A stretch of 64,000 nucleotides of DNA from Acidobacteriota bacterium (GTDB taxonomy: Bacteria; Acidobacteriota; Blastocatellia; Pyrinomonadales; Pyrinomonadaceae): the NCBI GenBank assembly GCA_003697135.1, contig RFGC01000047.1, positions 1 to 64,000 of the forward strand, in the 5' to 3' direction. Under the pieces are notes generated by a model. The model did not search any database. It had not been told where the DNA came from and saw only the letters and a program-made list of their open reading frames with translations. Positions 6,406 to 16,165 of the stretch are shown piece after piece. Position numbers and translations under genes: made by a program. Each line of letters starts with the position of its first letter. Within the stretch, counting starts at the first letter, position 1.

Positions 6406-7944
6406 TTACAGTTCAATCAATTCCAGGCTTTCCCCGGTCATTTCAACCGGTTTTTCGATTCCCAAAATTTCCAAAATCGTGGGAGCAACATCCTTCAAAG
6501 CCATATTTGGCCTGAGTTTCATGGTTTTCGAGCTTTCGTCTATCAAGTGAAAAGGCACGGGATTGGTAGTATTCGCAGCATTTGGCTTGCCGGAGCTTGA
6601 GATCATCTCTTCAGAATTGCCATGAGTGCTTGTTATGATTACCACTCCCTGCATTTTCAAAACTTTTTCAACAATTGCCCCAATGCAAGTATCAATGAAT
6701 TGGACTGCTTCAATAGTTTTCTCCAGACTTCCGAGTTTAGCCGCTGCTTCCGGAGCATCGAAATCAACTATCAAGACGTCGTCTTCATTTTTTTCAAGAC
6801 ACCACAAGACGGCATCTGTAATCTTGAAACTTTCTTTTTCAGGCGCAAACCCATTGCTCAAGTTTCTGGGTTTTATTGAGATATACTTCTCGATATTTCC
6901 AGGAGCTTGAAATCCCGAATCGAAAGATTCCGTCACAAGCTGTATCCTTTCTTCTCCTGCTATGCGACAATTCGAGATGCCATAGTTTGTAAAAACCTCT
7001 GCCAACGTTCCCTGGTATTCTTCCTTAGGGAAAGCAAAGCGAAGATTTAAGCCCCTGCAATACTCTGTAAGACAAACCGCATGAATTCTGGGTTTAGACG
7101 CACCTGAGAATTTATCATTTTGCACCAGAGCCTTTACAAGTTGTCGCATTCCATCAGCTCTATGATTGAAGAAGATCACAACGTCACCGTCTCTGATGGT
7201 AGCCACTGGATCCCCTTCACGGTTGATCAGAACGATAGGTCTGATGTATTCATCGGAGATGCCTCGCAAGAAAGCCTCACGCACCGCATGTGCTGCATTT
7301 ATTGCTTTTTCACCCTCAGCGTGAACCAGCATTGTGTATGCACGGGCAGTCAAACCCCAATTCTCGTCCTTATCCATCGCGAAATACCTACCGCAGATGG
7401 TTGCAATCTTGCCTACACCGATTTCATTCATTTTGACTTCTAAAGCCTCGATATAAACGTCACCAGTGCGAGCAGGCACATCTTTTCCGTCCAAAATCCC
7501 ATGGACAAAAACCCTTTCAACTCCGTGATTTTTTGCCATTCTAAGAAGCGCAAATAAAGCCTCCTGCGAAGAGTGAACCTCGGCGTTGCTCAGCAACCCT
7601 ATCAAATGAAGTGAAGATTCTCTTGCTCTCTGCATCGCTTCGATAAGCGCAGGATTTGAGTAGAACGCGCCCGATTCTAGCGCCTGCTTGATCCTTACAA
7701 TATCAGTTTGAACAATCCTTCCGGCTCCTATGTTCATGTATCCAATCTGGCTATCTCCAGCAGTTCCTTCTGGTAGTCCAACCCTTGTTCCAGAAGCCTT
7801 CAGAAGCGTTCGTGGATACTCCCTACAAATCCAGTCGTAATAGGGTTTGTGAGCTAAAGCTATTGCATTACCGCTTTTTTGCGGGCGGTAGCCCCAGCCT
7901 GCAATCACTATCAAAACAAGAGGTCTTCTGAGAGGTGGCTCCAT
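6406..7944 (-). CDS. Degenerate cofactor-independent phosphoglycerate mutase homologue (probable pseudoenzyme)
   Basis: The 512-residue length and fold landmarks match GpmI: 'GNAIALAHKPYYD', 'ASGTRVGLPEG', 'NIGAGRIVQTD', 'VHGILDGKDVPARTGD', 'GRYFAMDKDENW', 'TTNPVPFHLID'. GpmI normally uses two Mn/metal ions. Compared with E. coli/Geobacillus GpmI, the metal Asp of 'DGWG' is Ala15; the Asp and His of 'PDMVGH' are Glu399 and Lys403; the Asp of 'ADHGN' is Thr440; the His of 'TAHTTNP' is Asn458; the Lys of 'EKYAHVT' is Arg. The nucleophile Ser65 and His441 remain. Because the frame is intact and long, I read this as a retained protein with a changed role, not a decaying gene. Ordinary mutase activity is unlikely. 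Convergent with the LOG gene. Confidence 0.8.
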   Translation of the reverse strand: MEPPLRRPLVLIVIAGWGYRPQKSGNAIALAHKPYYDWICREYPRTLLKASGTRVGLPEGTAGDSQIGYMNIGAGRIVQTDIVRIKQALESGAFYSNPALIEAMQRARESSLHLIGLLSNAEVHSSQEALFALLRMAKNHGVERVFVHGILDGKDVPARTGDVYIEALEVKMNEIGVGKIATICGRYFAMDKDENWGLTARAYTMLVHAEGEKAINAAHAVREAFLRGISDEYIRPIVLINREGDPVATIRDGDVVIFFNHRADGMRQLVKALVQNDKFSGASKPRIHAVCLTEYCRGLNLRFAFPKEEYQGTLAEVFTNYGISNCRIAGEERIQLVTESFDSGFQAPGNIEKYISIKPRNLSNGFAPEKESFKITDAVLWCLEKNEDDVLIVDFDAPEAAAKLGSLEKTIEAVQFIDTCIGAIVEKVLKMQGVVIITSTHGNSEEMISSSGKPNAANTTNPVPFHLIDESSKTMKLRPNMALKDVAPTILEILGIEKPVEMTGESLELIEL

Positions 7945-8020
7945 AAATCTCCAAACTCCTTGTCTAGAATATCAAAAAACTGCTTGCATTGAGAATACCT
8001 AATTCTTCCTTGACCTATCC

Positions 8021-13052: not shown

Positions 13053-14309
13053 CTACAGTCTTAACGGCATTAAAACATAAACGTAGTTGTAGTCTTTCCA
13101 ACCAAGTGGTCTCATTAGAACTTGCGAATTGCTGTCGCGGAATTCAAACCTGATTCTTCCCTTTTCTTCATCTGAGCCATCTTTAGCAACTTCCCGAACC
13201 TTCACTTTATTTGACTCTATCTCCTTTTCTGTTTCTTCAACCGACTCAGCAGAGCTTTCCGATGCCTTCGATGCTCCCACAGACAAAACTACATCCAGAA
13301 ACTCCTGAATGTATTGAGAGTTAAATCCTATTGTGAAATCTTCTCCATCGTAAACAACAGGAATAACTTCCTTTGCTTCTCCATCTTGACTGAAAGCCTC
13401 TATAACAGCTTCATTTTTCATCAGCGTAATCTTGACAGCATGGCTCATTTCATCAGCCATAAGGCTTACTCTTCTAAGAGCCGCTCTCAGCGTAGCAGAA
13501 TCGAACTCTGCCACGAAGGGACTTTCCTTTGGAATAACGGCTTCGTAGTTCGGGAAATTCCCTACGAGTTTTCTAACAATCAAGCTACGGTTTTCCGAGG
13601 TGAAATAAAGATGCCTTTCATCTTCACCGAGGCCAAGCTTATTTTCATGACGACAAATCTTTGCAATCTCTTGCAGTGCACGCCTAGGTATTAAAATGTC
13701 TAGATTGCCTACCTCAGAAGATTCTCCTTCAAGGTCCTTCTCAACCATAGCTAATCTGTGTCCATCTGTTGTAACCATTCTGAGTTTTCTTCGACGGTTT
13801 TGAGACTTTCCGTCATTTTCGTTAACCGACAAGAACTTCGCAGCTGACAGCAAATAGCGAGACTGCTCCTGACTTATAGCAAAGCCAGTCATCTGAATAA
13901 AAGCCAAAAGCATATTTGAATCCAGTTGCGCGCCTACTTTCGTTTCAGCAGGCACTTCCGGGTATTCAGTTACGTCAATACTTGCTATTCTAAACTTAGC
14001 ATTTCCGCTCTCAACATGAACCCATGAAGACTCCTCGGCCCGAAAACGAATTTCTGGTAGATCCAATGATCTTGCTATGTCGAAAATTCTCTTTGCACTC
14101 ACCAAGACTGTGCCCTGCTCTGAAACTTGCGCAGGCATGTTAATATGCATTGTCATCTCCAAGTTGCTTCCTGTTACTCTAATTTTGTCCTCGCTAACCG
14201 ATTGGAAGAGAATACTCGATAGAGCCGGACTAATTGTCTTCTTATCTATGATGCCTTGTATAAATCCTATCTCTTCTTTGAGTGTCTCTTGCTTTATCGA
14301 AAATTCCAT
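13053..14309 (-). CDS. dnaN: DNA polymerase III beta sliding clamp
   Basis: Forms the ring clamp that tethers replicative polymerase to DNA. 418 residues with three repeated clamp domains ('MEFSIKQETLKEEIGFIQGI' opening; 'MVTTDGHRLAMVEKDL'; C-terminal 'YVYVLMPLRL'). ATG 14309 is supported by AGGAG eight bases upstream; the longer frame to 14408 runs into the origin and is not coding. The third domain contains an unusual ~35-residue Glu/Lys/Ser-rich insertion ('ASESSAESVEETEKEI...DGSDEEKG') just before the last strands. It lies beside oriC, downstream of dnaA in the same direction. Confidence 0.94.
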   Translation of the reverse strand: MEFSIKQETLKEEIGFIQGIIDKKTISPALSSILFQSVSEDKIRVTGSNLEMTMHINMPAQVSEQGTVLVSAKRIFDIARSLDLPEIRFRAEESSWVHVESGNAKFRIASIDVTEYPEVPAETKVGAQLDSNMLLAFIQMTGFAISQEQSRYLLSAAKFLSVNENDGKSQNRRRKLRMVTTDGHRLAMVEKDLEGESSEVGNLDILIPRRALQEIAKICRHENKLGLGEDERHLYFTSENRSLIVRKLVGNFPNYEAVIPKESPFVAEFDSATLRAALRRVSLMADEMSHAVKITLMKNEAVIEAFSQDGEAKEVIPVVYDGEDFTIGFNSQYIQEFLDVVLSVGASKASESSAESVEETEKEIESNKVKVREVAKDGSDEEKGRIRFEFRDSNSQVLMRPLGWKDYNYVYVLMPLRL

Positions 14310-14386
14310 ATTCTTCTCTCCTTTTTGATTTTTTCTTGATTCTTTAATTCTTCCAAATTTTCCAAAATTTCGGAAGTCTGCCCTTG

Positions 14387-14444
14387 CTACTACTATTACT
14401 ACTATCAAAATAAATTATTTTTTTATATCTAGTAGTAGTAATAG
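14387..14444. promoter_or_regulatory. Mirrored DnaA-trio-like arms around an AT-rich unwinding element
   Basis: Right arm 14430-14444 reads TAGTAGTAGTAATAG on the + strand, adjacent to a short GC-containing spacer (GAGCC) and then the first DnaA box. This is the order described for the B. subtilis DnaA-trio element. Left arm 14387-14406 carries CTA/TAC triplets, that is, TAG triplets on the opposite strand. Between them 14407-14429 is almost pure A/T. The right arm is a good DnaA-trio; the function of the left arm is inferred. Confidence 0.7.
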
Positions 14445-14446
14445 GA

Positions 14447-14468
14447 GCCTGTGGAAATGTGGAAAACT
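14447..14468. repeat. Direct repeat of a double DnaA box, copy 1
   Basis: A 22-base unit containing two DnaA boxes eight bases apart (start to start) is repeated exactly at 14616-14637, 169 bases away. Both copies are followed by similar 'aact' and 'tattgaaa/cattgaaa' sequence, so the duplicated module may be about 40 bases. Confidence 0.85.
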
Positions 14469-14615
14469 CACTTAACTCATTGAAAACAAAGGAGAAAAAT
14501 TTCCACAGTGGGCTGTGGAAAAATCCCGAAAACCTGTGGAAATCTTTTTTTCCTGTGGAAAATTTTTTGAAATTTTGAGTTTTCCACAGAGATCCACAGG
14601 GCATTTTTTGGGGTA

Positions 14616-14637
14616 GCCTGTGGAAATGTGGAAAACT
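14616..14637. repeat. Direct repeat of a double DnaA box, copy 2
   Basis: Identical to 14447-14468. The two copies bracket most of the remaining DnaA boxes of the origin. Confidence 0.85.
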
Positions 14638-14722
14638 TTTAACTAAGTATTGAAATGAGATAAGATACACGATTTTGAATTTTCAAAAATCTGTGGAAAA
14701 CTTTTTTGCCGAAAATCCGTAA

Positions 14723-16165
14723 CTAGCTGCAGATACAATCAATTAGCTCGTCAATGACCCTGTGGAAATTTTTATCTTCCTTTATCAGGGCATCTATTTT
14801 TTCGTAGGAATGGATTACAGTTGTGTGATGTTTGCCTCCGAAGGCTCTTCCTATTTCTGGAAAACTACTCTTTGTTAGTTTCTTGCACAAATACATTGCG
14901 ACTTGACGCGGAAAAGCTATTTGTCTGGAATTGTTTTTTGATTTTAGTTCTTCGACTGTTAGCTTGTAGTGAGCGGCTACTATTCTGGCGATTTTTTCAA
15001 TTGTTATTCCTTCTTCATTTTCAACAGGAACGAAATTCCTGATGGCATCTTGAGCCAGCATCTTTGAGATTGGCACGCCGCGAAGTGAAGAAATAGCTAT
15101 AAGTCTGATCAAGGAGCCTTCAAGTTCGCGGATATTGCTTTTTATTTTGCTTGCTATGTAAAACGCAACATCATCAGGAAGGAATATGCCTTCGAGGTCT
15201 GCTTTTCGCTTTAGAATCGCTATTTTGGTTTCCAGGTCCGGTGGCTCTATGTCTGCAATCAATCCCCACTCAAACCTTGAGTGAAGCCTTTCTTCGAGGG
15301 TGGGAATTTCGCGAGGTGCGCAATCGGAGGTTATGACTATTTGCTTTTGATTGTTATGTAGCGTGTTGAAAGTATGGAAAAATTCTTCTTGAGTTCTTTC
15401 CTTGCCTGCCATGAATTGAATGTCGTCCATCAGCAAGACATCTATGGAGCGGTATTTTTCCCTGAAAACCTGAGTTTTGTCATACCTGATTGCGTTTATC
15501 AGTTCATTCATGAACTTTTCTGCGGAAATGTAAGCTACGCGCATGTAGCGATTTCTTTCTTTGATGTAATGACCGATTGCATGCATTAGGTGAGTTTTTC
15601 CGAGTCCCACTCCACCGTAGATAAACAAAGGATTATATGTTTTCCCCGGAGCCTCAGCCGCTCTTAAACTTGCCGCATGAGCAAACTGGTTGCAGGAGCC
15701 AACTACAAAGGTTTGGAAAGTGTATTTTGGATTCAAAGCCGTTTCCGCAGGCTCAATGTCAACGAAATTCGCTGAGGAACTAAGGGAGCTAATCAAAATC
15801 TCAGGAGCGAATTTTTCGCCGTTTGCGTAACTTTCATGCTGAGGATTGTTTTCCGAGGAGAAGAAATCATCCTCGTTGCTGTAAAAACTTTCTTCAGGTT
15901 TTTCCTCCTCTATCTTCCATTCAATTTCGTATACCGGCAGTTTCAACTCGTGAATTACTTGCTTGATCAGGTCTGAATAATAAAGCTCTATCCAGTCTTT
16001 GTTGACCTGATTTGTTTTTAGGTAAATCACTTTGTTTTCTTCGTCCACCCTTTCAAACTGAATCGGACGGAACCAAGAATCGAAAATTTGCTTGTTAAGT
16101 CGTTTCTCGACCAATCCCAAGATAGTTTCCCAAACGTTTCCCTTATTTTCGGCTAAAGCTTCCAT
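14723..16165 (-). CDS. dnaA: Chromosomal replication initiator DnaA
   Basis: AAA+ initiator that binds DnaA boxes and opens oriC. Domain I (residues ~1-85) binds helicase and regulators; an acidic Asn/Glu/Ser linker (domain II) follows; domain III has Walker A 'GGVGLGKT' (184-191) and Walker B '[20 protein letters not shown]'; domain IV ends with the DNA-binding signature '[29 protein letters not shown]'. 480 residues is normal. A GGAGGAG ribosome-binding site precedes the ATG. DnaA boxes lie on both sides of the gene, allowing autoregulation. Confidence 0.96.

Follow-up and report, generated by a model that had tools for sequence, protein, structure and literature searches.

The established mechanism of iPGMs, the phosphoglycerate mutases of the GpmI type, follows a phosphoserine route, and the phosphoglycerate mutases (PGAMs) of plants are iPGMs. 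According to a 2010 survey, two mutase types, dPGM and iPGM, have been gained and lost in a patchy manner, with 115 genomes out of 702 carrying both (Foster et al., 2010; PMC2964296). Term searches of its text turned up truncated and stop-containing pseudogenes, and no conserved ligand-less iPGM. The plant PGAM moonlights with enolase and pyruvate kinase, and a mutant altered at four active-site residues keeps a non-catalytic role (PMC7481185). Within the literature collection searched, no paper on an iPGM pseudoenzyme was retrieved.

Here we describe a gpmI-like gene, hereafter pseudo-gpmI, from a member of the Pyrinomonadaceae (Acidobacteriota), located in a stretch of 64,000 nucleotides that was analysed as a whole and that we call the window. 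It resembles the described GpmI/iPGM enzymes (TIGR01307; PDB 1ejj, 1o98, and 1o99) by its length, its two-domain fold, the serine of the window copy, a partial substrate pocket and, in relatives, a frequent position downstream of eno, but it differs from them by a destroyed dinuclear metal site, a replaced lysine, a broken RxDR motif and, near the substrate motifs, fixed residues that are peculiar to its clade. As in genomes with both dPGM and iPGM, e.g. Escherichia coli with GpmA and GpmM, two unrelated mutase families are present in one genome, although both E. coli proteins are active mutases according to the same survey (PMC2964296). The plant PGAM is likewise a phosphoglycerate mutase with a role separable from catalysis, yet it is an active enzyme whose dead version is a laboratory construct, whereas the acidobacterial dead version is natural (PMC7481185). 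With other pseudoenzymes, e.g. those of duplicated families, pseudo-gpmI shares a retained fold, an inferred loss of catalysis and purifying selection, but unlike them it would have arisen through displacement by an unrelated enzyme and not through gene duplication (PMC6549527).

A full-length iPGM homologue and its active site

Pseudo-gpmI occupies positions 6406 to 7944 of the minus strand and encodes a full-length iPGM homologue of 512 amino acids, as indicated by its frame, profile matches, an AlphaFold2 model and fold matches. The frame is clean, without any internal stop, and a Shine-Dalgarno-like AAGGAG (7956 to 7961, minus strand) lies 11 bases 5' of the ATG. The protein reaches 453.5 bits against TIGR01307, above the curated cut-off of 330.65, and this equivalog-level profile constitutes an annotation trap, as it would label the protein an active mutase; against NF003897, however, it scores only 369 vs. 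862. Pfam recognized an iPGM_N and a Metalloenzyme domain, the former (PF06415, the transferase domain) spanning residues 85 to 295 (7060 to 7692, minus strand) and being, according to a comparison of domains, the region of strongest constraint in the clade described below. Searching the PDB with the sequence retrieved 1ejj (E 7e-119), and identity to the iPGM of Bacillus stearothermophilus amounts to 39%. The AlphaFold2 model (mean pLDDT 90.6, pTM 0.82) is predicted to adopt the two-domain fold, phosphatase-like plus transferase, with a TM of 0.86 to both 1o99 and 1ejj, the top fold match being 1o99, the S62A mutant of the B. stearothermophilus enzyme. Elsewhere in the window, dnaN- and dnaA-like genes are found at 13053 to 16165, about 5–8 kb from pseudo-gpmI, which may lie close to the chromosome origin in this genome.

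Substitutions are given relative to the numbering of the B. stearothermophilus iPGM, for which we take the assignment of metal ligands and substrate contacts to be established knowledge. Two of the seven metal ligands are kept and five are replaced, and the membership test for the dinuclear site is not met. On the minus strand, the alignment places Ala15 (7900 to 7902) at Asp12, Glu399 (6748 to 6750) at Asp403, Lys403 (6736 to 6738) at His407, Thr440 at Asp444 and Asn458 (6571 to 6573) at His462, while His445 is retained as His441, next to Thr440 (6622 to 6627 for the pair). The catalytic Lys336 has become Arg333 (6946 to 6948, minus strand), and the RxDR substrate motif reads R-A-D-G (residues 262 to 265; 7150 to 7161, minus strand), Gly265 standing for its second arginine (R264). 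All these changes had been listed in a first-pass annotation made from the sequence alone and proved real on alignment, in its own numbering, as did the retained Ser65, the preserved length and fold and the clean frame; it had overlooked two further changes, R191 to Lys192 and R153 to Lys154. With Arg333, Lys192 and Gly265 instead of the catalytic Lys336 and of the substrate residues Arg191 and Arg264, the test for these three residues is not met either. Retained residues include His124 (H123), Asp155 (D154), Arg186 (R185) and Arg262 (R261), as well as, in the window copy, the nucleophile Ser65 (S62; 7750 to 7752, minus strand), a position that holds Ala, Pro or Thr in 35 of the 53 clade members. 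With ligands missing from both metal sites and the catalytic lysine gone, the window protein is not expected to operate by the established phosphoserine mechanism, an inference from that mechanism and from the residues present.

GpmA and ligand state in the window genome and its relatives

Another mutase is encoded in the same genome. A search for other mutases, suggested in the first-pass annotation, returned a complete and canonical cofactor-dependent GpmA on contig C14 (L032), with 400 bits to TIGR01258 and an E-value of 2e-116 against solved dPGMs, but no second GpmI, pseudo-gpmI being the only gpmI-like gene of this genome. With GpmA and an enolase (contig C40) both present, the mutase step is covered. 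ApgM was rejected as a substitute, with only weak matches below the cut-off, and GpmA is the replacement. A 298-amino-acid protein of this genome (G000, contig C19; L034:1432-2328, minus strand) matches the archaeal-type mutase family with 29 bits, far below the cut-off, and is probably a separate member of the alkaline-phosphatase superfamily, of unknown role. Pseudo-gpmI itself is located on contig C24, separate from eno, and has no operon link to enolase there.

GpmI was aligned from 100 genomes belonging to the Pyrinomonadaceae and to its class, three of which had no clear GpmA match, lay within the GpmA-bearing group and were set aside from the counts. All genomes without GpmA (44/44) retain seven of seven ligands; among those with GpmA, 45 of 53 carry a degenerate GpmI that lost one to six ligands and 8 of 53 an intact one. 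A collection scan outside the clade yielded 76 GpmIs, all of them (76/76) with 7/7 ligands and 8/8 catalytic residues, i.e. no degenerate copy among these 76. Sequencing or assembly error and chance were excluded as explanations, since the genus mate of the window genome (G001) keeps 3/7 ligands and about 45 relatives each exhibit their own ligand losses. In an independent-pairs test of GpmA presence against degeneration, every informative pair pointed in the same direction, the contrasts being too few for significance; since a single ancestral gain is common to most GpmA-bearing genomes, the association depends on a small number of independent events. The first-pass annotation had reasoned that its pseudoenzyme would be refuted if this were the sole mutase of the genome and relatives restored the ligands. 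Neither condition holds: GpmA is present, the relatives with 7/7 ligands are mostly those without GpmA, and the alignment of homologues that it had called for revealed ligand losses fixed across many species.

Frames are full-length in nearly all complete GpmI loci of the relatives, and some GpmA-bearing genomes are entirely without GpmI. In G066, G006, and G093 (L126, L127, and L128, respectively), the row eno-GNAT-gpmI-...-tdk is intact save for gpmI, of which no remnant was detected; since at least three relatives deleted the gene, its role is dispensable. In many relatives gpmI is located downstream of eno, and its retention by operon polarity alone was considered; it is unlikely in view of the clean deletion of gpmI from the eno row of these three genomes and of its retention away from eno in the window genome.

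G057 belongs to a different family of this class, and its GpmI, encoded directly downstream of gpmA, carries D12S and H445N (L130:3478-5898) without the clade signature, which is an independent displacement in progress; when family f6 was searched for similar cases, ligand loss among full-length copies was seen in G057 only. Genus g18 (L009, L049, L054) harbors 7/7 metal ligands but shows R191 replaced by Ser and R264 by Gly, and its order of loss differs from that of other lineages. The GpmA-type matches of G038, G042, G046, G050, and G054 are without model positions 123–145 and perhaps resemble the shorter dPGMs described in Chlamydia and cyanobacteria in the 2010 survey (PMC2964296). In L102 (G081, OLB17), the frame of pseudo-gpmI is broken near the C-terminus and a second short piece follows in another frame, which is either a real frameshift or an assembly error.

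Phylogeny, fixed residues and selection

In a tree built without active-site columns, the GpmIs of the main GpmA-bearing group, the Pyrinomonadaceae, form one clade of 53 members (SH-aLRT 100, stem of 0.43 changes per column), of which the window genus is the basal branch; this is a quick tree, in which long branches such as that genus may be misplaced. Constraining the 45 degenerate family members to monophyly costs 73 log units, and a scenario in which the metal site was lost only once, in an ancestor, is rejected (AU p = 1e-9). Irreversible counting gives seven losses, six within the clade and one in G057. Eight residues (I149, R158, T159, D161, L225, H260, A401, and A406 at B. stearothermophilus positions) characterize the clade, in which each reaches 91–100%. 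They are present in all 8 members that have every metal ligand, whereas neither canonical GpmI nor the GpmA-bearing outsiders G128, G041, and G057 carry them as a set. In the window protein, they include Arg159-Thr160-x-Asp162 (7459 to 7470, minus strand), beside the substrate loop, found in 96–100% of the 53 members and rare in canonical GpmI, and His261 (7162 to 7164, minus strand), which replaces Phe260, adjoins the substrate Arg261 and occurs in 53/53 members and 0/48 outside. As they occur in fully liganded members and not in GpmA-bearing outsiders, these residues appear to have preceded the metal losses and not to be a mere effect of having GpmA. Judging from this distribution, the clade-specific changes are most likely older than the metal losses, and a change of role probably came before the loss of catalysis.

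Pairs of degenerate copies exhibit a dN/dS (omega) of 0.042–0.131 at dS 0.28–1.3, near that of neighbouring housekeeping genes, the adjacent enolase, CBS-domain and thymidine kinase genes giving 0.02–0.08 in the same pairs. At a matched transferase-domain identity of 0.6–0.7, metal-domain identity is 0.75 in canonical vs. 0.50 in degenerate pairs; of the two domains, the metal domain is the slower to evolve in canonical GpmI, and the reverse holds in degenerate copies. Omega by domain is consistent with this comparison in most pairs: in genus g9, the transferase domain usually has a lower value than the metal domain, whereas most canonical pairs show the opposite. The focus of selection has shifted away from the metal domain and onto the substrate (transferase) domain. 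The window protein is 62% identical to that of its genus mate, with pN 0.27 and a saturated pS of 0.80, which implies constraint in the window genus, the pair being too diverged for a proper dN/dS and an exact ratio; of the 85 near-invariant positions of the transferase domain, the window protein deviates at 9. Two criteria for a pseudoenzyme are fulfilled, the loss of catalytically essential residues and purifying selection in relatives, a non-catalytic function being inferred only. The view of a retained pseudoenzyme and not of decay, put forward in the first-pass annotation, is thus upheld by the GpmA of the genome, by losses fixed across many species, by the low dN/dS and by relatives that have either a full-length gene or a clean deletion.

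Possible roles of the retained protein

The window protein is very probably a retained, selected non-mutase, as far as its residues can tell, and the GpmI of this clade almost certainly serves another purpose now. In our preferred reading, to which we give a probability of roughly 0.55, it is a selected pseudo-iPGM that stems from gene displacement, kept part of its phosphoglycerate pocket and acts by binding, its function, ligand and partner being inferred. By non-orthologous gene displacement, an ancestor within the Pyrinomonadaceae would have acquired GpmA, which would have freed GpmI from catalysis. GpmI would then have taken on, or kept, a role of its transferase-domain pocket, the surroundings of which would have been altered and then fixed, and the metal centre would afterwards have been lost several times independently, the window genus included. 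A phosphoglycerate-type ligand may still be bound via His124, Asp155, Arg186 and Arg262, and the protein would act without catalysis by contact with another protein, most likely a component of lower glycolysis (enolase or GpmA, for instance); as a binding protein without metal, it would sense a phosphoglycerate-type metabolite and act on this partner. The detailed order of these events and the regulatory action are likewise inferred, and the step to a ligand-binding regulator is tentative, a little short of an even chance, with no binding or interaction data.

A metal-free ligand-binding role is plausible, since a dead plant PGAM keeps a non-catalytic role and since a nucleophile-dead S62A iPGM was crystallised with 2-phosphoglycerate, according to the title of entry 1o99. 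Against enolase as the partner, gpmI is apart from eno in the window genome, where operon support is lacking, and the loss of R191 and R264, frequent in the clade, would weaken binding of the original substrate. Between the regulator, the scaffold and the phospho-ligand sensor proposed in the first-pass annotation, a role in ligand binding is favoured by the move of constraint towards the transferase pocket, although the specific role cannot be shown from sequence. It is also possible, though we would not count on it, that GpmI, once displaced by an unrelated enzyme, was remodelled in this clade at its substrate pocket and became a new sensor of phospho-metabolites, or a new enzyme, that works without metal, the pocket being fixed first and parallel losses of the metal centre following.

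Neither a purely structural role nor a new metal-independent reaction can be ruled out. GpmI may always have had a role independent of catalysis, e.g. docking in a lower-glycolysis assembly, which alone survives and needs no ligand: that catalysis was lost repeatedly and independently while the protein persisted suggests an earlier second role, the eno-gpmI order is conserved in many relatives and a dead plant PGAM restores organelle association (PMC7481185), but a constraint focused on the transferase domain and new residues fixed by the substrate motifs indicate more than passive surface retention, and we regard this explanation as unlikely without dismissing it. Less likely still, the transferase domain may have a new metal-independent activity, for which the new invariant His261, Asp162 and Arg159 would stand beside the kept His124, Asp155, Arg186 and Arg262. 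These new polar residues reach 98–100% in the clade and adjoin the substrate motifs in sequence, and the transferase-domain omega is very low in genus g9; however, the window protein departs at 9/85 near-invariant transferase positions, a candidate reaction is lacking and no relative is known to function without the metal domain.

Slow decay of a gene made redundant by the arrival of GpmA would agree with ligand loss only where GpmA is present and with deletion in several GpmA-bearing relatives, but it is very improbable, being already contradicted for genus g9 by an omega of 0.04–0.13 at dS 0.28–1.3, and being opposed by full-length frames in nearly all complete loci, by new residues fixed clade-wide and, in the window genus pair, by pN 0.27 vs. 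a saturated pS of 0.80. The test for a decaying pseudogene (relaxed selection, frameshifts, stops) is not met, the frame being clean and omega low in relatives. That the protein is still a mutase, whether through an altered metal site or by a mechanism with one metal or none, could be argued from its Ser65 and His441 and from clade members with 7/7 ligands, but is hardly credible when both metal sites are short of ligands, the catalytic lysine is an arginine, the serine nucleophile is absent in 35/53 clade members and GpmA already performs the step.

Read as a selected pseudo-iPGM, the GpmI of the Pyrinomonadaceae is an ancestral enzyme without its catalytic centre that dozens of species maintain by strong selection, and versions that are intact, damaged in part, fully broken or deleted coexist. 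It provides a replicated natural experiment on what remains for an old enzyme once an unrelated one takes over, and a testable route to the non-catalytic roles of a central glycolytic enzyme.
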